Positions 6,238 to 53,228 of a stretch of 64,000 nt of DNA are shown piece by piece. Within the stretch, counting starts at the first letter, position 1. The number at the start of each line of letters is the position of its first letter. Below the pieces are notes generated by a model. The model had not been told where the DNA came from, made no database searches, and saw nothing but the letters and a program-made list of their open reading frames with translations. The DNA is taken from positions 1,984,001-2,048,000 of the forward strand of contig NZ_CP030064.1 of NCBI RefSeq assembly GCF_003990725.2. The letters are read 5' to 3'. The stretch is from Halorubrum sp. PV6. Its GTDB lineage: Archaea; Halobacteriota; Halobacteria; Halobacteriales; Haloferacaceae. The translations under genes and the position numbers were made by a program.

Positions 6238-9200
6238 ATGGCGTCTCAGGATGGTCAAGTGCGGTTCTACGAACAACTCTTTGAGTCTGTCTCGGACGCG
6301 ATTTTTGTGTATGATCCCGAAAACGGAGTTGTCGTCACGGCGAACCCCGCTGCGGCGGAGATAACCGGATACCCAGTCGAAACGCTTGAGGGACGCTCGG
6401 TTGCCCAATTCAGTGCCGGAACTCCCGCGGAGGTCGAACAGGCGGCCCTCCGGATCATCGAGACGGCCTCGGCGGGCGCCCAAGAGTTCGAGTGGCCGAT
6501 TGAGCGCGCCGACGGCGAACTCAGGACCACCGAGGTGTCGCTGCAGCGCACGACGCTCGGCGGCGACGACCGAGCGCTCGCGATCATGCGCGACGTGACC
6601 GAGCGCGAACAGGCCCGCAACGAGGCGAACGAGCAGCGACAGGTGCTCTCGCTGCTGACCGAAGTGAACCCGGCGGTGTTGTGGCTGTTTTCGCCGGACT
6701 GGGACGAGTGTCTGTTCATCAACGACGCGTACGAGGAGCTGTTCGGACGGTCGACGACGGCGATCAAATCCAATTCCATGGATTTCATGGAGGCAGTCCA
6801 CCCGGAGGATCGCGAGACCGTCCAGACCGCAATGGAACAGCTGAGCAACGGTTCTCGTGTCGAATTGGAGTACCGAGTCAACGAGAGCGAAGCGTACAGC
6901 CGGTGGGTCTGGACCGAGGGACTCCCCATTTTCAACGAGACAGGGGAGTTGCAGTCGGTCGTCGGGTTCAACCGAGACATCACCGACATGAAGCGGCTCG
7001 AAACTGAACTCATCGGCCAGCGCGACGAGCTGGCGGCCCTGACGGATAACGCGCCGATAATCTTGTTCGAACTCGACGACGAGGGGACGTTCCTCCAGTC
7101 GCGGGGGCGCGGGCTCGACGACCTTCAGATCGACCCGAACCAGTTCATCGGAGAGTCCATCTTCGAGGTGTACGGGGACTACGAAGTGATCACCGACGCC
7201 TGTCGGCAGGCGCTCAACGGGGAGGCAGTCAGACGGACCGTCGATTTCGAGGGGTTCGTCTTCGACGCCTGGTATCAGCCGACGTACGACGAGACAGGGG
7301 CGGTAGACGGGGTTCTCGGCGTTGCGGTCACGGTCACGGATCGCGCCCGGCTTGAAGCGGATCTGATGGCGAACAACCGCGCGCTACAGGATCTCCACAC
7401 TCGCGCGGCGCGCAGCGATCTCACCCTCTCGGAGCGCATTGAAACGATGCTGGACATCGGGCGGGAGCGCTTGGATCTGCCGTACGGCTTTTTAACACGG
7501 ATCGACGACGGGACACAACACATCGTCGAGTCAGTGGGGTCACACGACGAGCTACAGGCAGGGGCCTCCGCGCCGCTGTCCCAGGCGTACTGTCGCCGAA
7601 CCATCGACACCGAGGGGCTGCTCGGCGTGCAAGACGCGGTGGCGGACGGGTGGGAGGGTGACCCCGCTTACGAGCGATTCAACCTCAACTGCTACATCGG
7701 CGGCAAACTGCAGGTGGACGGCGAGCTGTACGGGACGGTCTGTTTCGCGGATTCGGTCGCCCGCGATCGGAGCTTCTCCGAGTTCGAGCGGTCGCTCGTC
7801 GAACTCCTCGTTCAGTGGCTCGGCTACGAACTCCAACGAGATCAGCGTGAGTCGCGACTGCGCGAACTCAACGACGAACTGGAGACCGTGCTGGACACCT
7901 CGCCCGTGGCCATCGTTCAGCTTGACGAGGAGGCAACGATTCTCCAGTGGAACCAATGCGCGGCGGAGCTGTTCAATATCCCGGCAGCAGGGGCGGTCGG
8001 CTCGCATATCCATACCATCCCTAAAGAGCAGCGTCCGGAGTTCCAGACGTTGCTGGGGCGAGTCATGGACGGCGAGGTGATCCGCGACTACGAAACCACG
8101 CAAAGAGGAGCCGACGGCTCGCAACGAGTGCTGTCGTTGAACCTCGAATCGACGGTCGACGACGACGGCGATCCGACCGGCGCAATCGTCGCCGTTACCG
8201 ACATCACGAGCCGGAAACGGCGACACCAACGGACCGACGCGCTGCGAGCAGCGACGCAGGACCTCGTCGGGGCCGACGAGCAAGAAACCGTGGGCAAGAT
8301 TGCTCTTCGGACGGCCAGAGACGCGTTGGAATTTCCGATCTGTGCCGTGTGGCTCTACGACGAGACGGCAGACGTGTTATCTCCGGTCGCACAAAGCGAG
8401 GCCGCCGTGGAGTTGGTAGGAGATGCGCCGACGATCGATCGCGGCGAGGGGCTGTTCTGGCGAGCGTTCCTCACCGGGCAGACGGTCGTCGTCAACGATG
8501 TCCAAAGCGAGGATGGCATTTTCAACCCCGAGACTGACATCGGATCTGAGATCATCGTCCCCATGGGCGACCACGGGGTGCTAGCCGTCGCGTCAGCCGG
8601 GACGCAGTCGTTCGGCACGGAAGACAGCAACATTCTCGAAACCCTCGCCGGGTCGTTGACGGCCGCACTCAACAGCGTCGCTGATAAGGAGCGCCTCCGA
8701 CAGCGTGATCGTGAACTCCAGCGCCAGAACGAGCAGTTAGACGAGTTCGCAGACGTGATCGCACACGACCTGCGGGGACCGCTCACCGCTGCCCGAGGGT
8801 TCTTCGAAATCGCGCTCGAAACCAGCGACCCCGACCACTTCAAGCGGGTCGAAGAGGCCCACGCCCGGATGGAACTGCTTATCGACGACCTGCTGACGAT
8901 GGCTCGGCAGGGTCGGTCCATCGGCGACCGCATGCCCGTCGATCTTGTCGCGTTAGCCCGCCGCATCTGGGCCGATGTCCACGATGAAGCCACGCTCAAG
9001 ATTACGGAACCACTGCCGGACCTGACCGGCGACGTTGCGCGGCTCGAAGAGGTATTCAGCAACCTCTTTCGTAACGCGGTCGACCACGTCGGACCCAACG
9101 TCACTGTCAGGGTTGGACCACTCGATGACGGTGGATTCTACGTCGAAGACGACGGGCCGGGGATTCCGGTCGAGAAGCGCGACCACATCTTCGATTACGG

Positions 9201-9330
9201 GTACACGACGAATCTGCGGGGAACGGGGATCGGGTTAGCCGTCGTCGAAGAGATCATCATCGCCCACGGATGGACCATCTCGGTCACGGACGGGTCCGAC
9301 GGGGGGGCCCGGTTCGAGATTTCGACGTGA
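6238..9330 (+). CDS. Multi-PAS/GAF sensor histidine kinase
   Basis: A 1030-residue soluble sensor kinase without obvious membrane helices. From the N-terminus I read three PAS-type domains (about 5-125, 130-260, 265-380), a GAF domain (385-545), a fourth PAS (548-665), a second GAF (670-815), then HisKA and HATPase_c. The phospho-acceptor is His843 in VIAHDLRGPL. The ATPase shows the N box (NLFRNAVDH), G1 (DDGPGIP) and G2 (GTGIGLAVV). It is divergent from the receiver-pgsC-pgsB operon, making that receiver a likely partner. Soluble PAS/GAF arrays commonly sense redox state, light or small ligands; the signal cannot be told here. Confidence 0.95.
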   Translation: MASQDGQVRFYEQLFESVSDAIFVYDPENGVVVTANPAAAEITGYPVETLEGRSVAQFSAGTPAEVEQAALRIIETASAGAQEFEWPIERADGELRTTEVSLQRTTLGGDDRALAIMRDVTEREQARNEANEQRQVLSLLTEVNPAVLWLFSPDWDECLFINDAYEELFGRSTTAIKSNSMDFMEAVHPEDRETVQTAMEQLSNGSRVELEYRVNESEAYSRWVWTEGLPIFNETGELQSVVGFNRDITDMKRLETELIGQRDELAALTDNAPIILFELDDEGTFLQSRGRGLDDLQIDPNQFIGESIFEVYGDYEVITDACRQALNGEAVRRTVDFEGFVFDAWYQPTYDETGAVDGVLGVAVTVTDRARLEADLMANNRALQDLHTRAARSDLTLSERIETMLDIGRERLDLPYGFLTRIDDGTQHIVESVGSHDELQAGASAPLSQAYCRRTIDTEGLLGVQDAVADGWEGDPAYERFNLNCYIGGKLQVDGELYGTVCFADSVARDRSFSEFERSLVELLVQWLGYELQRDQRESRLRELNDELETVLDTSPVAIVQLDEEATILQWNQCAAELFNIPAAGAVGSHIHTIPKEQRPEFQTLLGRVMDGEVIRDYETTQRGADGSQRVLSLNLESTVDDDGDPTGAIVAVTDITSRKRRHQRTDALRAATQDLVGADEQETVGKIALRTARDALEFPICAVWLYDETADVLSPVAQSEAAVELVGDAPTIDRGEGLFWRAFLTGQTVVVNDVQSEDGIFNPETDIGSEIIVPMGDHGVLAVASAGTQSFGTEDSNILETLAGSLTAALNSVADKERLRQRDRELQRQNEQLDEFADVIAHDLRGPLTAARGFFEIALETSDPDHFKRVEEAHARMELLIDDLLTMARQGRSIGDRMPVDLVALARRIWADVHDEATLKITEPLPDLTGDVARLEEVFSNLFRNAVDHVGPNVTVRVGPLDDGGFYVEDDGPGIPVEKRDHIFDYGYTTNLRGTGIGLAVVEEIIIAHGWTISVTDGSDGGARFEIST

Positions 9331-9396
9331 GGCGAGTCGTCTCAGACCACCGAAATCCGACCGCTTGCAACGGCTGTCACGAGTTACGGAGCGTGA

Positions 9397-44074: not shown

Positions 44075-45703
44075 ATGGAGCCAGACTTAGACCGGTTCAC
44101 CTCTCGCCGGTCGACGGTGTACGGGCAGCGAGGGGTCGTCGCCACGAGCCAACCGCTCGCGAGCGAGGCGGGCATCGCGATGCTCCGCGAGGGTGGGAAC
44201 GCGTTCGACGCCGCGGTCGCGGCCGCCGCCGCGCTCAACGTCGTGGAGCCCACGTCGACGGGGCTCGGCGGCGACGTGTTCGCGCTGTACCGCACCGCCG
44301 ACGGCGACGTGGGGGCGATGCGGGCCTGCGGCGGGGCGCCCGCCGACGCGACGATAGCGAACGTCCGGGCGGCGCTCGCGGCCGACGAGGGCGTCGACGG
44401 CGACGAGCCGGGCGAGGTCGAGATGCCGGCGACGGGGACACAGACCGTGACCGTTCCGGGGACGGCTCGCGGCTGGGAGGCGACCGCCGAGCGGTTCGGC
44501 GAGTTCGGCCTCGACCGGCTGTTGCGGCCGGCGATACGGTACGCGAAGTCGGGGTACCCCGTGAGCGAGGTGGTCGCCGACGCGTGGACGCAGGCCGAGA
44601 CGCTGTTCGAGACCGACCACGCGCGCGAGGCGTACCTCTTCGACGGCGAGTCGCCGTCCGTCGGACAGCGCGTGACGCTGCCGCGGCTCGGCGACTCGTT
44701 GGAGCGCGTCGCCGAGGCGGGCGCCGACGCCGTGTACACGGGCGAGATCGGGGAGGCCATCGCCGAGGAGGTGCAGGCGGCGGGCGGGCTGTTGACGGTC
44801 GACGACCTGGCCGACTTCGAGGTCGAGTGGCCGGAGCCGGTCTCGACGACGTACCACGGCGCGGAGGTGTACGAGCTCCCGCCGAACAACCAGGGGCTCA
44901 TCGCGTTGGAAGCGCTCAACATCGCGGCCGAGGTCGGCGCCGGCGAGTACGACTACGACGCGCCGGAGCGCGTCCACTACTTCGCGGAGTCGCTCAAGTT
45001 GGCCTTTCACGACGGCCACCGGTACATCAGCGACCCGGAGTACGAGGCGATTCCACCGCTCTCGTCGACCGCGTGGGCGCGCCGCCGGGCGGCCGAGATC
45101 GGCGAGCGGGCGAACCACGACGTGGGGTTCGGCGTCCCCGACGCCAACGCCGAGGACGCGGACACCGTGCTGTTGACCGTCGCCGACGCGGCGGGGAACG
45201 TCGTCTCGTACATCAACTCGCGGTTCGCCGGGTTCGGTTCGGGGCTCGTCGCGGGCGAGACCGGGATCGCGCTCCAGAACCGCGGCTCGTCGTTCTCGCT
45301 CGACCCCGACCATCCGAACCGGATCGCGCCCGGCAAGCGACCCTTCCACACTCTGTTGCCCGGTCTGCTCCGGTTCGACGAGGACGACTGGGCGGCCTTC
45401 GGCGTGATGGGCGGGTACATGCAGCCGCAGGGCCACCTCCAGGTGGTGTCGAACCTCGTCGACTACGGGATGCCGCTCCAGCGCGCGCTCGACGAACCGC
45501 GCTGGCGCTACCGCGAGAGCGGGGCGCTCGCCGTGGAACCCCACATAGACGGCTCGGTCGGCGCGAAGCTGAGTCGGAGGGGCCACGACGTGACGACGCT
45601 CCCGGCGAGTCGGTTCGGCGGGGCACAGATCGCCCGGTGGCGCGACGGCGTCCTCTCGGCTGCGACCGAGCCGCGAAAAGACGGGACCGCACAGGGGTAC
45701 TGA
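44075..45703 (+). CDS. ggt: Gamma-glutamyltransferase family protein
   Basis: A 542-residue Ntn-hydrolase that transfers or hydrolyses gamma-glutamyl groups. It would self-cleave before the candidate nucleophile Thr364 in DADTVLLTVAD. The large-subunit pattern MLREGGNAFDAAVAAAAALNVVEP and the small-subunit GGYMQPQGHLQV are present. No signal peptide is visible, so it may be cytoplasmic. Relatives degrade gamma-linked peptides including poly-gamma-glutamate, which is interesting given the pgsBC genes at 3-6 kb, although the two loci are 38 kb apart. Halophilic archaea use gamma-glutamylcysteine, another possible substrate. Confidence 0.92.
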   Translation: MEPDLDRFTSRRSTVYGQRGVVATSQPLASEAGIAMLREGGNAFDAAVAAAAALNVVEPTSTGLGGDVFALYRTADGDVGAMRACGGAPADATIANVRAALAADEGVDGDEPGEVEMPATGTQTVTVPGTARGWEATAERFGEFGLDRLLRPAIRYAKSGYPVSEVVADAWTQAETLFETDHAREAYLFDGESPSVGQRVTLPRLGDSLERVAEAGADAVYTGEIGEAIAEEVQAAGGLLTVDDLADFEVEWPEPVSTTYHGAEVYELPPNNQGLIALEALNIAAEVGAGEYDYDAPERVHYFAESLKLAFHDGHRYISDPEYEAIPPLSSTAWARRRAAEIGERANHDVGFGVPDANAEDADTVLLTVADAAGNVVSYINSRFAGFGSGLVAGETGIALQNRGSSFSLDPDHPNRIAPGKRPFHTLLPGLLRFDEDDWAAFGVMGGYMQPQGHLQVVSNLVDYGMPLQRALDEPRWRYRESGALAVEPHIDGSVGAKLSRRGHDVTTLPASRFGGAQIARWRDGVLSAATEPRKDGTAQGY

Positions 45704-45951: not shown

Positions 45952-45958
45952 TTATAAA
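45952..45958 (+). promoter_or_regulatory. TATA box of the permuted binding-protein gene
   Basis: TTATAAA lies 26 bases before the ATG at 45984, consistent with a leaderless transcript. The upstream ATG at 45966 is too close to the box to be the start. Confidence 0.6.
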
Positions 45959-45983
45959 CGCGCGTATGGTACTCCCTTTCAGA

Positions 45984-47381
45984 ATGAGGCGAAGAATTCA
46001 GCGACGCGACGTACTCAAAGGCGCCGGTGTGGCCGGCATCGCAGCCCTCGCCGGCTGCTCGACCGAAAGCGGAGACGGGTCCGACGGAGGCGACGGCTCC
46101 GACGGAAGCGACGGGTCTGACGGCTCCGACGGCTCCGGGAGTTCCGACGGCTCCGACGGCAGCGACGGCGAGGACAGCAGCGCGCCCGACGCCGTGATGG
46201 TCGTCGGGTTCCCGGAGTCCGGAATTCAGCTGTTCCGCGACTTCTACTCCGAGTTCGCGGGCGACGTTCCCGACCTCGACATCATCGTCCCCGACGGGCT
46301 GATCGACTCCGATCTCCCCGGCGAGGTCGACAACGACATGAACAACGTCATCGGGACCGCGCCGTCCGCGAGCGGACCGGGCGCGGAGTTCTTCACCAGC
46401 GCGTACGAGGAGGAGTACGACACCGCACCGGGCGTGTTCACCGCGCAGGCGTACGACGCGATGGCGGTCCAGATCCTCGCGGCGACCGCTGCGGGCGAGA
46501 ACAACGGGGAGGCCATCCGCGACCGCGTCCGGACCGTCGCGAACCCCGGCGGCGAGGAGTTCGGCCCGGAGACGCTCCCCGACGCGGTCGAGGCCGTCGC
46601 GGCCGGCAACCCGGTCCACTACGTGGGCGCGTCGTCGAGCGTCGACTTCGACGTCAACGGCGACATCGCCACGGCGGCGTACGACGTACAGGACTTCCAG
46701 GACGGCGACATCGTCACGCTCGACACCCTCGAGTTCGGGAACGAGCTCTCGGACGAGGACCTGAACGCGCCGGCGGCCGACCCCGTCGGCGTCGACGAGT
46801 TCGAGGCCCAGGTCGGCGTGCTGATGCCCGAGACCGGTGACCTCGGTCCGCTCGGTGGGCCGATCCGCGACGGCGCGCTGCTCGCCGCGACGCAGGTCAA
46901 CGACGCCGGCCTGAACGTGACGGTGAACACGCGCGTGGAGGACACCCAGACCGACCCGCAGGCGGGTATCTCGGGCGCGAACGCGCTCGTCGACGCCGGC
47001 TTCGGCGCCGTCGTCGGACCGGCCTCTTCGAACGTCAACCTGCAGGTGGCCGACAGCGTCTACATCCCGAACGGCGTCGTGGGCATGTCGCCGTCGTCGA
47101 CGAGTCCGGCCGTGACCGACTTAGACGACAACGGCTACATCTTCCGTACCGCCCCGTCCGACCTGCTGCAGGGGCCGGCGATGGCCGAACTCGCGCGCGG
47201 CGACACGGTCGGCGCCGCCTCGTCGGGGACGCTGTACCTCAACGACGCCTACGGGCAGTCGCTTGAGGAGCAGTACGTCGCCGCCTTCGAGGACGCCGAC
47301 GGAACGATCACGAACCGCGTCTCCTTCGAGCCGGCGCAGGCGACGTACACCAGCCAGTGGTCGAGCGTCCTGAACCAGTAG
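45984..47381 (+). CDS. LIV-type (branched-chain amino acid) binding lipoprotein with circularly permuted halves
   Basis: A 465-residue exported binding protein with a Tat-like start (RRDVLKGAG), lipobox (LAGC) and a Gly/Ser/Asp linker to about residue 66. Normally the first lobe (GVLMPETGDLGPLGG...) comes next. Here residues 68-251 are what is usually the second half (DAVMVVGFPESGIQLFRDF, PGVFTAQAYDAMAVQI, the C-terminal IVTLDTLEF). After a linker (252-274) comes the usual first half (VGVLMPETGDLG to YTSQWSSVLN), which ends the protein. The order is thus swapped, with both halves complete. The convergent LIV transport operon lies 1.7 kb downstream. Family secure; permutation judged from memory of relatives. 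Confidence 0.88.
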   Translation: MRRRIQRRDVLKGAGVAGIAALAGCSTESGDGSDGGDGSDGSDGSDGSDGSGSSDGSDGSDGEDSSAPDAVMVVGFPESGIQLFRDFYSEFAGDVPDLDIIVPDGLIDSDLPGEVDNDMNNVIGTAPSASGPGAEFFTSAYEEEYDTAPGVFTAQAYDAMAVQILAATAAGENNGEAIRDRVRTVANPGGEEFGPETLPDAVEAVAAGNPVHYVGASSSVDFDVNGDIATAAYDVQDFQDGDIVTLDTLEFGNELSDEDLNAPAADPVGVDEFEAQVGVLMPETGDLGPLGGPIRDGALLAATQVNDAGLNVTVNTRVEDTQTDPQAGISGANALVDAGFGAVVGPASSNVNLQVADSVYIPNGVVGMSPSSTSPAVTDLDDNGYIFRTAPSDLLQGPAMAELARGDTVGAASSGTLYLNDAYGQSLEEQYVAAFEDADGTITNRVSFEPAQATYTSQWSSVLNQ

Positions 47382-47573: not shown

Positions 47574-48095
47574 GGCTCTGTTGAAACCCTCTGAAATTGC
47601 TATTTCTTCCCCTTCTAGCACTCAGAACAGCATGAGCTGTCACTGCTCGTTAGCGGGAACTGTACCGGTGTATCTCTTGTGCCAATTTCTCTAAGAAAAC
47701 GCCCTCATTTGCGAGGTCGTTCCCCCAATTCATGAGCGAGAATCGCGGTTTCGATGACACGGTCACAACGGTGCGACCACTCTCGGTGGACACTTGGATT
47801 TCAATTTTATCGCCGAAAGACTTCCAAGAAAGCGGTGTGAAGGCCTTCAGAGTCAACTTATCACTCTCAACGTCGACTGGCTTCCAGCCAACGTATCCGA
47901 CCACCTCCCTACAAGCGGCAAACACCACGTCGGTATCTTGGGCGAACTCTTTTGTTCGCATACTCTACCCTTGAGACAACTTGGAAAGAATGTTGGGTAC
48001 AACGGTGGCGTCATACCCCCTGCTCGGGACACGGTCGTTAGCGACCGATCTGTTCGCGGGAGAATATAGTTGAGTAAGAGGATTTCAACAGAGCC
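47574..48095. mobile_element. MITE-like element with terminal inverted repeats and a small cargo gene
   Basis: GGCTCTGTTGAAACCCT at 47574-47590 is mirrored by its near-perfect complement at 48079-48095 (one mismatch). The ends begin GGCTCTGTTGAAA, a type I associate with haloarchaeal insertion-sequence termini. The 522-base interior has no transposase and encodes one 103-residue protein. No clear target-site duplication is seen. Local composition is AT-richer than the flanks. Upstream, a frame without a start codon (ADYEFYEDVASHGDVVRLAL) reads straight through the left end, suggesting an older related insertion. Confidence 0.6.
47650..47961 (-). CDS. Small protein of unknown function within the inverted-repeat element
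   Basis: A 103-residue protein without signal or membrane segments. It reads like an alpha/beta domain: REVVGYVGWKPVDVESD, then WKSFGDKIEIQVSTESG with VVTVSSKPRF, then a C-terminal helix FLEKLAQEIHRY. I recall similar short bacterial and archaeal proteins of unknown function (a GWK...SWRSWGEKI-like pattern). Its composition is less acidic than its neighbours, in line with transfer. It lies entirely between the terminal inverted repeats. Confidence 0.65.
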   Translation of the reverse strand: MRTKEFAQDTDVVFAACREVVGYVGWKPVDVESDKLTLKAFTPLSWKSFGDKIEIQVSTESGRTVVTVSSKPRFSLMNWGNDLANEGVFLEKLAQEIHRYSSR

Positions 48096-48301: not shown

Positions 48302-48718
48302 ATGTCCCCTCCGGATGGCTGCCTTCCTCCCAGTCAGCAGACGCTTGTTCAACGCCTCCGTTCAGAGCTCGGAGAGTATCTGTATTTGACGCTCATCTAC
48401 CACGACGACTCGAGTCAGCTCTTACAGGTCGCACCAACAGCAGCAGACGCCCTCAGCCGCGCGGATGAGCAACTAACCGAGTCACACCCGACCGTGACGG
48501 AGATCAAGCGGTGTTGTACTGAGCAGACTGCTACCCAAACACTCCCGTTTGGCGACCACCGATGCTCGCTTCACCTGTATGACGAGTGGCTTCTCCTACA
48601 CTATCGAGAGCCGCCATCTGGGGTGGTCATCGGTGTCGATGCCGCAAGCGCATCCAACTTACGAGGGTTTCTCACAGATATCTCCCCTATGATCTCTGAT
48701 GTCTTGCCACAGCAGTGA
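48302..48718 (+). CDS. Haloarchaeal protein of unknown function
   Basis: A 138-residue soluble protein. The N-terminal segment (LRSELGEYLYLTLIYHDDSSQLL) and C-terminal LTDISPMISDVLP resemble a group of haloarchaeal hypothetical proteins. No cysteine motif or membrane segment stands out beyond a Cys-Cys in the middle (IKRCCTEQ). A TATA box TTATTAAT at 48274-48281 sits 21-28 bases before the ATG, so the gene is probably expressed as a leaderless message. The gap 48096-48273 has no gene. Confidence 0.65.
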   Translation: MSPPDGCLPPSQQTLVQRLRSELGEYLYLTLIYHDDSSQLLQVAPTAADALSRADEQLTESHPTVTEIKRCCTEQTATQTLPFGDHRCSLHLYDEWLLLHYREPPSGVVIGVDAASASNLRGFLTDISPMISDVLPQQ

Positions 48719-49056: not shown

Positions 49057-49902
49057 TTACCCGCCGAGGAAGTCTTGCCGCACGTCCTCGTCGCCGAGGA
49101 GCAGGTCGCCGCGGTCGGTGTAGCGGTTCTCGCCGTTGACGAGGACGTACCCCCGGTCACAGCGCCGCAGCGCCTCCTTGGCGTTCTGCTCGACCATCAG
49201 GATGGCCGTCCCCGAGTCGTTGATCCGGTCGATCCGGTCGAACATGTCGGAGACGAGGTCGGGCGCGAGCCCCGCGCTCGGCTCGTCTAAGAGCAGCAGG
49301 TCCGGGTCGAGCATCAGCGCGCGACCCATCGCGACCATCTGCCGCTGGCCCCCGGAGAGCGTGCCGGCCTTCTGTCCCTGCCGTTCCCGGAGAATCGGGA
49401 AGCGGTCGTAGATCGCTTCGATCTGGTCTTCGGGGACCTCGTCGAGGATGTACGCGCCCATCTCGAGGTTCTCGCGCACGCTCAGTCCCGGAAAGACGTT
49501 GTCGGTCTGGGGGACGAATCCGATCCCCTCGCGGATGATCTGCTCCGGAGCGAGGCCGTGGATCGGCGAGCCTTCGAACTCGATGCTGCCGTCCATGTAC
49601 GTCGTGAGCCCGAAGACGCTCTTCATCACCGTCGACTTGCCCGCGCCGTTCGGACCGACGATGGTCACGTACTCGCCGTCAGCCACGTCGAGGTCGACGT
49701 CGGAGAGGATCTGGAGGTCGCCGTATCCGGCGTCCAAGTCGCGGAGTCTGAGGATTGCGTCGCCGTCCAGCGTGTGCGTCGTTCCCGCCTGCACGTCGGC
49801 GGCCGCCGGCTGCTCGGGGGCGGTCGCGTCGTCCGGTTCCGCGGCGCTGTTGTCGGCGGCGCCTGCCTCCTCGGTCGCGGCGTCTGCGTCGTCGGCGCTC
49901 AT
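49057..49902 (-). CDS. livF: LIV-type ABC transporter ATPase (LivF)
   Basis: A 281-residue ATPase. An acidic Ala/Asp-rich N-terminal stretch of about 45 residues precedes the domain. Walker A is GPNGAGKST, the signature LSGGQRQMV and Walker B LLLLDEPSAGL, with VEQNAKEAL after it, as in LivF. The ATG overlaps the livG stop by 4 bases. Last gene of the four-gene operon. Substrate class: branched-chain amino acids or similar amides. Confidence 0.92.
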   Translation of the reverse strand: MSADDADAATEEAGAADNSAAEPDDATAPEQPAAADVQAGTTHTLDGDAILRLRDLDAGYGDLQILSDVDLDVADGEYVTIVGPNGAGKSTVMKSVFGLTTYMDGSIEFEGSPIHGLAPEQIIREGIGFVPQTDNVFPGLSVRENLEMGAYILDEVPEDQIEAIYDRFPILRERQGQKAGTLSGGQRQMVAMGRALMLDPDLLLLDEPSAGLAPDLVSDMFDRIDRINDSGTAILMVEQNAKEALRRCDRGYVLVNGENRYTDRGDLLLGDEDVRQDFLGG

Positions 49903-50792
49903 ATGTCCTCCCCCAGGTACGCCTCGATGACCCGGTCGTCGTTCCGTATCTCGTCGCCGGTCCCCTCGGCGAGAACGCTGCCCTGGTGCATGACGATAAC
50001 GTGTTCGCAGTTGTTCATGATGACGTCCATGTCGTGTTCGACGAGGAGGAACGTGTAGCCGTCCTCGCGCAGCTTGTGGACCCGGTCGAGGAGTTTCTCC
50101 TCTAAGGTGGGGTTGACGCCCGCGAGCGGCTCGTCGAGCAGCACCATCTCCGGGTCGGTCATGAGCGCCCGCGCCATCTCCAAGAGCTTCCGTTGGCCCC
50201 CGGAGAGGTTGCCGGCGTGTTCGGTCGCGAGGTGGTCGATCTCGAAGAAGTCGAGCGTCTCCCAAGCGCGTTCGCGGATCTCCTCTTCCTGCGCGATGAC
50301 GTCGCCCCGGAGTCCGGGTGCGACCGCGCGGATCGCCGACTCGCCGATCTGTCCTTTCGGCGCGAGCATCAGGTTCTCGAGGACGGTCATCTCCTCTAAC
50401 TCGCGAGCGATCTGGAAGGTCCGCACGAGCCCCTTGCGCGCGATCTGATACGGTTCGAGCCCGGTGATGTCCTCGCCGTTGAACGTGACCGAGCCGGCCG
50501 TCGGCTCGTGGACGCCGGTGATGCAGTTGAACGTGGTCGATTTGCCGGCGCCGTTCGGACCGATGAGGCCGGTGAGCGACCCCTGCTCGACTTCGAACGT
50601 GGCGCCGTCGACGGCGGTGACGCCGCCGAACCGCTTGACGAGCCCGTCGACCCGAAGCGGCGGCGACCCGGACGGGACGACCTTCGCCGCCTCCTCGACC
50701 TCGCTGTCGTTCGCTTCCGGCTCGTCGGCCGGCGGACCGCCCGCGTCCGCCTCGTTCGCGACGTCGGACGCGTCGGGGATGTCGCTACTCAT
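49899..50792 (-). CDS. livG: LIV-type ABC transporter ATPase (LivG)
   Basis: A 297-residue ATPase with Walker A GPNGAGKST, signature LSGGQRKLLEMAR and Walker B VLLDEPLAGVNP, the LivG pattern, and LLVEHDMDVI after it. The N-terminus is an acidic extension. ATG 50792 overlaps the livM stop by eight bases; a GTG at 50801 is possible. It pairs with LivF. Confidence 0.92.
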   Translation of the reverse strand: MSSDIPDASDVANEADAGGPPADEPEANDSEVEEAAKVVPSGSPPLRVDGLVKRFGGVTAVDGATFEVEQGSLTGLIGPNGAGKSTTFNCITGVHEPTAGSVTFNGEDITGLEPYQIARKGLVRTFQIARELEEMTVLENLMLAPKGQIGESAIRAVAPGLRGDVIAQEEEIRERAWETLDFFEIDHLATEHAGNLSGGQRKLLEMARALMTDPEMVLLDEPLAGVNPTLEEKLLDRVHKLREDGYTFLLVEHDMDVIMNNCEHVIVMHQGSVLAEGTGDEIRNDDRVIEAYLGEDI

Positions 50793-52110
50793 CGGACTCA
50801 CCCCCGCTCGGCCGCTCCGAGATGTCGACGGCCGCAGCCGTCTCGATCCGGTCGCCGAGTATCCCGTCGGGCCGCCGGTGCATGATGAACACCAAGATGA
50901 GCCCGAGGAAGACGAACTGGAGCGGCGCGATGTTGTCGGTCACGAACGCGAGGAACGAGATGGGGTCGAGCGTCGCCACGGCGTCGGCGAACGACGGCGG
51001 CGTCTCGGCCGTGATGACGCCGCGGACCGCCGACCCAACCCGGCGCGGTCCCTCGAACAGCACCGTCGCGAAGACGATGCCGCCGAGGACGGCGCCGGTG
51101 TTCGACCCGGAGCCGCCGATGATGACCGCGATGAAGACGTAGAAGGTGAGCACCGGCATGAACTGCGGCGTCGGCGAGACGTTACCCTGGCTGCCGAACC
51201 AGAGGATGCCGACCAGCCCCATCAGCGCACACCCGATGACGAACACCTTGATCTTGATCAGGTCGACGTTCTTCCCGAGCGAGTCGGCGACGAGTTCGTC
51301 CTCGCGGATCGCCTTCAGCGTCCGGCCGAACGGCGACCGACCGAGCCGTTCGAGGAGGACGTAGAAGCCGACGACGAAGGCGGCGATGACGGTGATGTAC
51401 CCCCAGTCGATCAGGATGGTGTTGGCGATGCCGAGCCCGCTCTCGCCGAGGGTTCCGAAGACGACGTCGCCGAGGGCGGTCGGGGTTCCGACCTGGCCGT
51501 CGACGAGGAACAGCTCGCGGACGGGGTTTTGCGGCATCCCCATCCCGCGACCGCCACCGGTGCCGACGCCGAGCGTGTCCCTGAGGAACGTGTCGAACGC
51601 GCTCGACTGGAGGAAGAGTCGGATGATCTCGGAGATGCCGAGCGTGACGATGGCGAGGTAGTCGGCCTTGAGCCGGAGCGCCGGGAGCGCCGCGAGCAGC
51701 CCGACGACCGCGGCCACAAGCATCCCGGCGACGATACCGACCGGGAGCGGGAGCCCGAATCCGGGCGGGCCGAACGCCGGGTCGGGCGAGCGAACGACGA
51801 TGCCCATCGTGTAGACGCCGAGCGCCATGAAGCCGGCCACGCCGATGTTGAACAGGCCGGCGTACCCCCACTGGAGGTTCAACGCGAGCGCGGCGAGCGC
51901 GTAGACGAGCCCGAGGAAGGTCAGCGTGCGCATCAGCCCGACGACGCTGTTGAGCCCGTCGGAGAAGGTCAGCACCGTCGCGGCGGCGTACACCAGAAGG
52001 AGCGTCCCCAGGACGAGCCCGAGGTCGCTCTGTTTGGCGGCGTCGATGACGGCGGCCGTCGCGCTCTCCGGCCGATCGTCGGCCGACGGAGAAGACGAGG
52101 ACGCGCTCAT
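50785..52110 (-). CDS. livM: LIV-type ABC transporter permease (LivM)
   Basis: A 441-residue membrane subunit with about 10 helices. The LivM hallmark NLQWGYAGLFNIGVAGFMALG and the cytoplasmic loop GRTLKAIREDELVADSLGKN are present. An acidic tail follows the last helix. The stop overlaps livG, and the start overlaps the livH stop (ATGA). Confidence 0.93.
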   Translation of the reverse strand: MSASSSSPSADDRPESATAAVIDAAKQSDLGLVLGTLLLVYAAATVLTFSDGLNSVVGLMRTLTFLGLVYALAALALNLQWGYAGLFNIGVAGFMALGVYTMGIVVRSPDPAFGPPGFGLPLPVGIVAGMLVAAVVGLLAALPALRLKADYLAIVTLGISEIIRLFLQSSAFDTFLRDTLGVGTGGGRGMGMPQNPVRELFLVDGQVGTPTALGDVVFGTLGESGLGIANTILIDWGYITVIAAFVVGFYVLLERLGRSPFGRTLKAIREDELVADSLGKNVDLIKIKVFVIGCALMGLVGILWFGSQGNVSPTPQFMPVLTFYVFIAVIIGGSGSNTGAVLGGIVFATVLFEGPRRVGSAVRGVITAETPPSFADAVATLDPISFLAFVTDNIAPLQFVFLGLILVFIMHRRPDGILGDRIETAAAVDISERPSGGESDE

Positions 52111-53228
52111 GCGGTCGAAACACCTCCGAAGAGCCCCTCAGGACGCAGGAGGAGCATGGTGATCATCACGGCGAAGGCGGCGGCCTCGTTGAAGTCGGAG
52201 GGGATCCAGATGGTCGAGGTCGTGAACACGATCCCGATGACGAGCCCGCCGGCGATCGCGCCGTACACCGAGCCGATCCCGCCGAGGATGACGGCGGCGA
52301 AGATCAGGAGGAGGAGCAGCCAGCCGAAGTCGAACTGGATCGTCCCGCGAAGCAGCACGTAGAGGTACCCCGAGGCGCCGGCCAGCCCGCCGCCGATGAT
52401 CCACGTGGCGGTGACGACGCGCTCGGCCGGGATGCCGGTGACGAGCGCGAGGTCCTTGTTGTCGGCCATCGCGCGCATCGCGGTGCCGAGTTTGGTGCGC
52501 TGGAGCATGAAGTGCATCGCGAGCATGAGCCCGAGCGCGGCGACCACGATGGTCAGGTCGTGGGCGTTGACGGAGAGCCCGAGCGGGGCGAACGCGATGT
52601 TCGAGGCGTCGAGACTCGCCGTGACGCCGCGCCGGTCCGAGCCGTAGACGAACTGGATCACGTACCGGACGATCAGCGCGGCCCCGATCGACGCGATCAG
52701 GATCGAGATCCCGTCGCGGTCGCGCATCGGCTTGTAGAACGCCCGGTCGAGCGCCAGCGCGACGGCGGCGGTGATGACGAACGCCGCGATCAGTCCGACG
52801 AGGATCGCGACGGGCGTCGAGAGCACGTGGGCCCCGACGTCGCCCGCGGTCGCGTTGCCGGCGTCGCGGACGGTCAAGAGCGCGCGCGCCGGGATGTCGC
52901 CGAAGCCGGCGATCAGGAACGCGACGCCCCAACCGGTGAACGCCCCGGTGCTGAGTAAGTCGCCGTGCGAGAAGTTCGCAAACGAAAGGATGCTGTACGT
53001 CATCGAAAGCCCGATTCCAGCGAGACCGACGACGAGACCGATGATGATCCCGTTCCAGAGATTCGAGCCGAGTCGATCGGCGGAGAGTGCCCCGCCGAGC
53101 GGGCCTATCGAGAGCCCGACGAGTTTCGCGGCGAGGTCGACGAGGAGCAGGCCACCGAAGAGGACGACGAGAAGAAGCCCCGGTCGCGCCCGCGCCGACT
53201 CGACGATCGACGATTCAGTTGTTCCCAT
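52107..53228 (-). CDS. livH: LIV-type ABC transporter permease (LivH)
   Basis: A 373-residue membrane subunit with about eight to nine helices. The LivH pattern SMTYSILSFANFSHGDLLSTGAF is clear, with GTAMRAMADNKDLALVTGI in the loop and VILGGIGSVYGAIAGGL near the end. First gene of the operon, with a TATTTAC box about 33 bases upstream on the minus strand. Its binding protein is probably the convergent permuted lipoprotein at 46 kb, because none is found next to livH. Confidence 0.93.
   Translation of the reverse strand: MGTTESSIVESARARPGLLLVVLFGGLLLVDLAAKLVGLSIGPLGGALSADRLGSNLWNGIIIGLVVGLAGIGLSMTYSILSFANFSHGDLLSTGAFTGWGVAFLIAGFGDIPARALLTVRDAGNATAGDVGAHVLSTPVAILVGLIAAFVITAAVALALDRAFYKPMRDRDGISILIASIGAALIVRYVIQFVYGSDRRGVTASLDASNIAFAPLGLSVNAHDLTIVVAALGLMLAMHFMLQRTKLGTAMRAMADNKDLALVTGIPAERVVTATWIIGGGLAGASGYLYVLLRGTIQFDFGWLLLLLIFAAVILGGIGSVYGAIAGGLVIGIVFTTSTIWIPSDFNEAAAFAVMITMLLLRPEGLFGGVSTA

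Follow-up and report, generated by a model that had tools for sequence, protein, structure and literature searches.

The binding-protein gene and its surroundings

The window, i.e. the whole stretch of 64,000 nucleotides from Halorubrum sp. PV6 that was analyzed, contains a gene for a substrate-binding protein (SBP) of the LIV/HAAT type in which the two halves of the binding domain are encoded in reverse order, and, convergent to it, the operon of a LivHMGF-type importer. The following features were located, positions being those of the window:

45952..45958, plus strand: TTATAAA, candidate archaeal TATA box, as read from the sequence
45984-47381, plus strand: open reading frame of the permuted substrate-binding protein, 465 aa
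45984..46058, plus strand: signal peptide with twin-arginine-like RRDVLKG and lipobox LAGC (Cys25), from sequence and Pfam TAT_signal
46059..46184, plus strand: Gly/Ser/Asp-rich tether from lipobox to folded domain (residues 26-67), from sequence
46185..46736, plus strand: residues 68-251, the C-half of the LIV-type domain, which comes first (PF13458 profile 191-311)
46737..46805, plus strand: joint from the natural C-terminal tail to the natural N-terminal edge (residues 252-274)
46806..47378, plus strand: residues 275-465, the N-half of the LIV-type domain, which comes last (PF13458 profile 3-186)
49057..49887, minus strand: livF, ABC ATPase (PF00005, 114.7 bits)
49899..50801, minus strand: livG, ABC ATPase (PF00005 and PF12399, BCA_ABC_TP_C)
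50785..52110, minus strand: livM, permease (PF02653)
52107..53228, minus strand: livH, permease (PF02653)

The spacing of about 26-32 nt between TTATAAA and the ATG at 45984 would be compatible with a leaderless transcript, and a second in-frame ATG at 45966 offers an alternative start. The Pfam TAT_signal match to residues 5-24 scored 19.8 bits, slightly below the cut-off of 22.7. Comparable tethers rich in Gly, Asn, Asp and Ser were found in relatives of either order.

The arrangement of the livHMGF operon (49057-53228, minus strand) and the SBP gene is conserved across loci: the SBP gene usually sits just past livF and convergent to livHMGF, whichever the order of its halves. Of the loci with enough room, 44 of the 54 permuted ones and 19 of the 23 of standard order had a convergent livF no more than 3.5 kb away; several of the misses are loci ended by contig ends or runs of N. 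The locus of another genome of the same genus, G321 (L165), reads lipA-livHMGF-SBP-ggt with an SBP of standard order, and is thus the window's locus with the other topology; a permuted copy was searched for in G321 and was not found. In that locus (G321:C1, 3323-12149) window-like flanks surround a far more diverged liv cassette. Compared with their window counterparts, lipA and ggt show 88% and 81% identity but livH and livM only 62% and 52%, so that the transporter and its SBP appear to have been replaced in place as one cassette.

Directly upstream of the SBP gene, at 44075-45703, lies a gene for a gamma-glutamyltranspeptidase (PF01019), an adjacency conserved in Halorubrum; the enzyme may be linked in function to amino-acid uptake. 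Between the SBP gene and livF there are two small open reading frames, 47650-47961 (minus strand) and 48302-48718 (plus strand), for which no Pfam match was found. A PADLOC scan gave no match.

Order of the two halves

Membership of the window protein in PF13458 (Peripla_BP_6) was clear, with 109.8 bits for the whole protein against a curated cut-off of 31.7. The native protein matched the profile in two stretches, the better of which aligned residues 276-462 with profile positions 3-186, and the piece beginning at residue 68, scanned alone, aligned with positions 191-311. The N-half-then-C-half order of LIV/HAAT proteins was therefore not what was found: the two stretches are swapped. When the protein was rotated to place the N-half before the C-half, a single stretch (1-308) covered profile positions 3-311, with a score of 121.5 bits versus 109.8 for the protein as encoded. 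The PDB sequence of LivK (3td9) behaved likewise, aligning with the native protein in two separate segments and with the rotated one in one colinear segment. Unpermuted homologues (L095-L114 and others) matched at full length after rotation, as expected of a circular permutation pair, and HMM boundaries of the C-half were identical between permuted and standard relatives. On these alignments, the window protein is a permuted variant and not a standard LIV/HAAT member.

These results bear out a sequence-only reading of this DNA, which had proposed LIV-type halves in C-then-N order and had named beforehand a colinear HMM alignment over residues 68-465 as a result that would speak against it; such an alignment was looked for with Pfam and PDB sequences and was absent. 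The boundaries it had drawn (68-251, 252-274 and 275-465) proved correct within a residue or two by Pfam alignment. Both halves are intact, as it had held, being covered by the HMM and PDB alignments and each being under purifying selection (see below), and the same alignments confirm the short new joint at residues 252-274. They also put the cut after the helix that ends in SSVLN and before the strand DAVMVV, in agreement with its proposal and with the AlphaFold2 model. The C terminus of the window protein is the cut point itself.

Predicted fold, ligand and working model

AlphaFold2 modelled the window protein with a pLDDT of 90.4 and a pTM of 0.89 (33 permuted sequences), and the standard-order relative L096 with 92.1 and 0.91, respectively (20 sequences). 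Residues 210 to the end followed by 7-189 of the permuted model correspond to the L096 model helix for helix and strand for strand; the joint was predicted with a pLDDT of about 79-87. Foldseek, which aligns in chain order and served here as a control for order, matched the permuted model to LivK 3td9 over 193 columns with a TM score of 0.43, about half the length, versus 379 columns and 0.82 over the full length for the standard-order model. Combined, the high pLDDT, the half-length matches to LIV structures and the match of elements after rotation predict a type I two-lobed fold, and the window protein most likely takes this usual shape, in line with the earlier suggestion that the fold could survive permutation.

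The cut falls between helix H181-188 and strand E194-198 of the L096 model, whose counterparts we take to belong to lobe 2 in the known LIV fold. A cut within lobe 2, as placed earlier, is consistent with this fold and with the order of elements in both models.

None of the 33 aligned permuted proteins departed from the motif SPxxT, and SPxxT and PDG were invariant at equivalent places in the permuted and standard alignments. By analogy with E. coli LBP, the SPxxT (lobe 1) and PDG regions are presumably ligand contacts, the predicted ligand being a branched-chain or other amino acid.

The evidence is best explained by a functional, natural, circularly permuted LIV/HAAT (type I) lipoprotein that serves the adjacent LivHMGF importer and in whose family the order of the halves switched more than once, or to and fro, at one shared cut; we consider this very probable. 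The order, the cut, the joint, the conservation, the genomic niche and the conflict of the trees with a single permuted clade are direct observations; ligand, transport and docking are predictions. In the working model, signal peptide, lipobox and tether come in front and the folded domain is then read as C-half, joint and N-half. The N-terminal cysteine would anchor the protein to the membrane through lipid, an amino-acid-like ligand would be held in the cleft between the lobes, and it would be handed over to the convergently encoded LivHMGF importer. Through the permutation the membrane tether would attach at the new terminus, the lobe-2 cut, and would pull on this point rather than on the natural N-terminus.

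Distribution and conservation

A full-length match to the window protein implies a permuted protein; among the matches listed, 126 of 292 sampled genomes of the haloarchaeal class carried such a homologue. A standard-order query gave a full-length, close standard-order homologue in 174 of 391 genomes. Both forms can occur in one genome, as for example in G084. In one search, each of the 23 Halorubrum genomes recovered had a permuted protein, which was of the window type (77-93% identity) or of a second type (50-54%). Across Halorubrum the order recurs at 76-93% identity, which speaks against chance as well as against an assembly fault. In other members of the phylum no permuted form was seen, the matches being to the N-half only or in standard order; bacteria were covered by one contig search with stretches of the window protein. 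Values of dN/dS for nine orthologues were 0.14-0.35 in each half; on these coding-sequence ratios, purifying selection is acting on both.

Two genomes of another family, G065 and G077 (L169 and L170), encode window-type permuted proteins at 79% identity, which suggests horizontal transfer of the cassette to these lineages. The permuted gene of one Halorubrum-type genome, in L176 (G092:C2, 7076-9874), is broken within the N-half by an insertion of ~1.4 kb containing a 388-aa transposase-like open reading frame at 8198-9364; the adjoining liv operon is intact.

The cut, the joints and a possible route of permutation

The cut was identical to the residue across the permuted proteins examined: in every one of them the domain starts at the same strand, usually with P-D-x, and ends 1-5 residues past the helix ending SxLN or its equivalent. 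The joints measure about 20-30 aa and differ in sequence among three permuted clades (window clade, middle clade and a large second group; see below). They retain the natural C-terminal tail DTxxF-x, and those of the second and middle groups also retain the natural N-terminal edge R-[E/T/D]-[V/I/M], as found before the first strand in standard proteins. The window-clade joint, GVD(G)FEA, is similar to GVDDGYEV, the leader of standard-order protein L109. Retained natural edges are to be expected if a gene was duplicated in tandem and its two outer halves were then lost, and from the joint alone such an origin may be proposed. Fused N-C-N or C-N-C intermediates were not found; the two-domain SBP frames were C-N (102) or N-C (57), a tally that includes many repeats of the same gene. 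Besides the tandem gene of L116 and the gene of L176 split by an insertion sequence, no remnants of outer halves, which a recent duplication should leave, were found up- or downstream of permuted genes. Because neither intermediate nor remnant came to light, the duplication route is one that we only infer.

In L116 (G148:C2, 6380-9192) a tandem pair of permuted SBP genes lies beside one livHMGF operon, the second gene apparently without the lipobox cysteine. This pair shows that duplication happens, not that duplication caused the permutation.

One permuted clade or several

All proteins were rotated to one order before trees were built; the outgroup was small, and deep branches near the root had weak support. 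The permuted forms fell into at least three clades: the window clade, which adjoins a standard group A; a middle clade (L115, L119, L121 and L171); and a large second group (L116-L118, L120, L122-L133 and others). The halves of permuted and standard forms are 50-67% identical, group A sharing 54-64% with the C-half and 59-67% with the N-half of the window protein. In the rotated-protein tree the permuted state needed four changes, and a single permuted clade was rejected (p=0.0019); in a larger tree of 70 rows the number was again four, and starred branches forced two of these. For the concatenated tree of LivH, LivM, LivG and LivF, which are separate genes, three changes were needed, each of them imposed by starred branches; this tree rejected a single permuted clade (p=3.4e-6), with which the enlarged LivHMGF tree agreed. 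The window clade was placed inside or beside standard relatives with strong support (100/95* in the 70-row protein tree and 100/100* in the LivHMGF tree). Taken alone, the N-half rejected a single permuted clade (p=0.0056); the C-half did not (p=0.187), and joining the window clade with group A in the C-half tree raised the log-likelihood by 2.9 (p=0.53).

These trees are best read as showing that permutation recurred, or that the topology flips in both directions. In its full form, namely that haloarchaeal LIV SBPs underwent at least two or three independent permutations (or flip) at one cut, beside the same type of LivHMGF transporter and sometimes at the same locus in one genus, we regard this as rather probable. 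One ancient permutation, from which all permuted clades descend and which several lineages later reverted to standard order, would simply explain a cut shared to the residue and joints alike in length, and the C-half tree accommodates it. Yet on the LivHMGF tree rooted with L113 a standard ancestor requires three gains, whereas one gain requires about five or six reversions, each of which would have to remove the joint exactly; the joints differ in sequence between clades, the window clade sits among standard relatives, and the rotated protein, the N-half and LivHMGF all reject a single permuted clade. A single origin is thus considered unlikely. A little less likely still is the spread of the front piece (tether, C-half and joint) by intragenic recombination, which would give the C-half a history different from that of the N-half. 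Haloarchaea recombine freely, the two forms meet in some genomes, the trees of the two halves disagree in places and only the N-half of the two rejects a single clade; but the C-half equally allows the grouping of the window clade with group A, it carries no positive sign of foreign origin, and joints are not common to different clades.

A fusion of halves from two different SBP genes, instead of the rotation of one, would yield the same architecture, and tandem SBP genes do exist, as in L116. We hold it to be improbable, as both halves are nearest to the same standard family, group A, and their edges fit exactly: they do not overlap, and the cut has cost just two or three residues. An assembly error or a decaying gene, in favor of which nothing was found, has a negligible probability: the same order recurs in dozens of independent assemblies, which rules out the former, and a continuous open reading frame with purifying selection in both halves rules out the latter.

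Significance and comparison with known systems

As a rule, a natural circular permutation is known as one ancient event, recognized by structure comparison. In the recurrent permutation favored here, both orders are common, closely related, and found with the same transporter type and in the same niche, and the change recurs at one cut, which makes the family a natural experiment. It bears on which cut points evolution accepts, on whether permutation proceeds via tandem duplication and on whether the site of the tether matters for docking on the importer. It also holds a warning for annotation, as profile searches return half-matches and order-dependent structure searches score half a protein.

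Compared with LIV/HAAT SBPs (LivK 3td9, LivJ 4gnr and E. coli LBP 1usg), the window protein is alike in the sequences and predicted folds of its halves, lipoprotein-type export, the neighboring livHMGF genes and the conserved SPxxT region; it differs in that the halves are reversed, an extra joint is present and the tether is at the lobe-2 cut, not the natural N-terminus. Binding proteins that were permuted or split by engineering, for use as biosensors, demonstrate that folds of this kind accept new termini; those are laboratory-made, whereas the window protein is natural and inherited.

The sequence-only reading knew of no described natural permutation in this family. This stood for LIV-type and for archaeal SBPs, of which no permuted example was found in the open-access literature, but it does not extend to type I SBPs at large, in which a natural permutation is already known (MglB-2); the surprising part is the repeated switching at the same site. 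MglB-2 of Treponema pallidum (Tp0684) and its relatives, named 'Type Ic / Cluster Bc', are naturally permuted type I sugar-binding lipoproteins, present in treponemes and Gram-positives, not in archaea, which are tethered at the new N-terminus and in which a new cross-link joins the old termini (PMC4990184). In them the N lobe has had its first three strands moved to the end, the C lobe is untouched and the moved part is hardly alignable by sequence; their authors suggested that tethering may favor such topologies (PMC4990184). This idea could be probed in the haloarchaeal family, in which proteins of either topology are tethered and would deliver to the same kind of importer. The window protein resembles MglB-2 in being a circularly permuted type I SBP tethered at a new terminus, but it is not of the Type Ic / Cluster Bc kind, defined by moved N-lobe strands, an unaffected C lobe and kinship with MglB: its cut lies, by the models, inside lobe 2, it belongs to PF13458 and not to the MglB family, both of its halves align clearly, and it has close unpermuted relatives.
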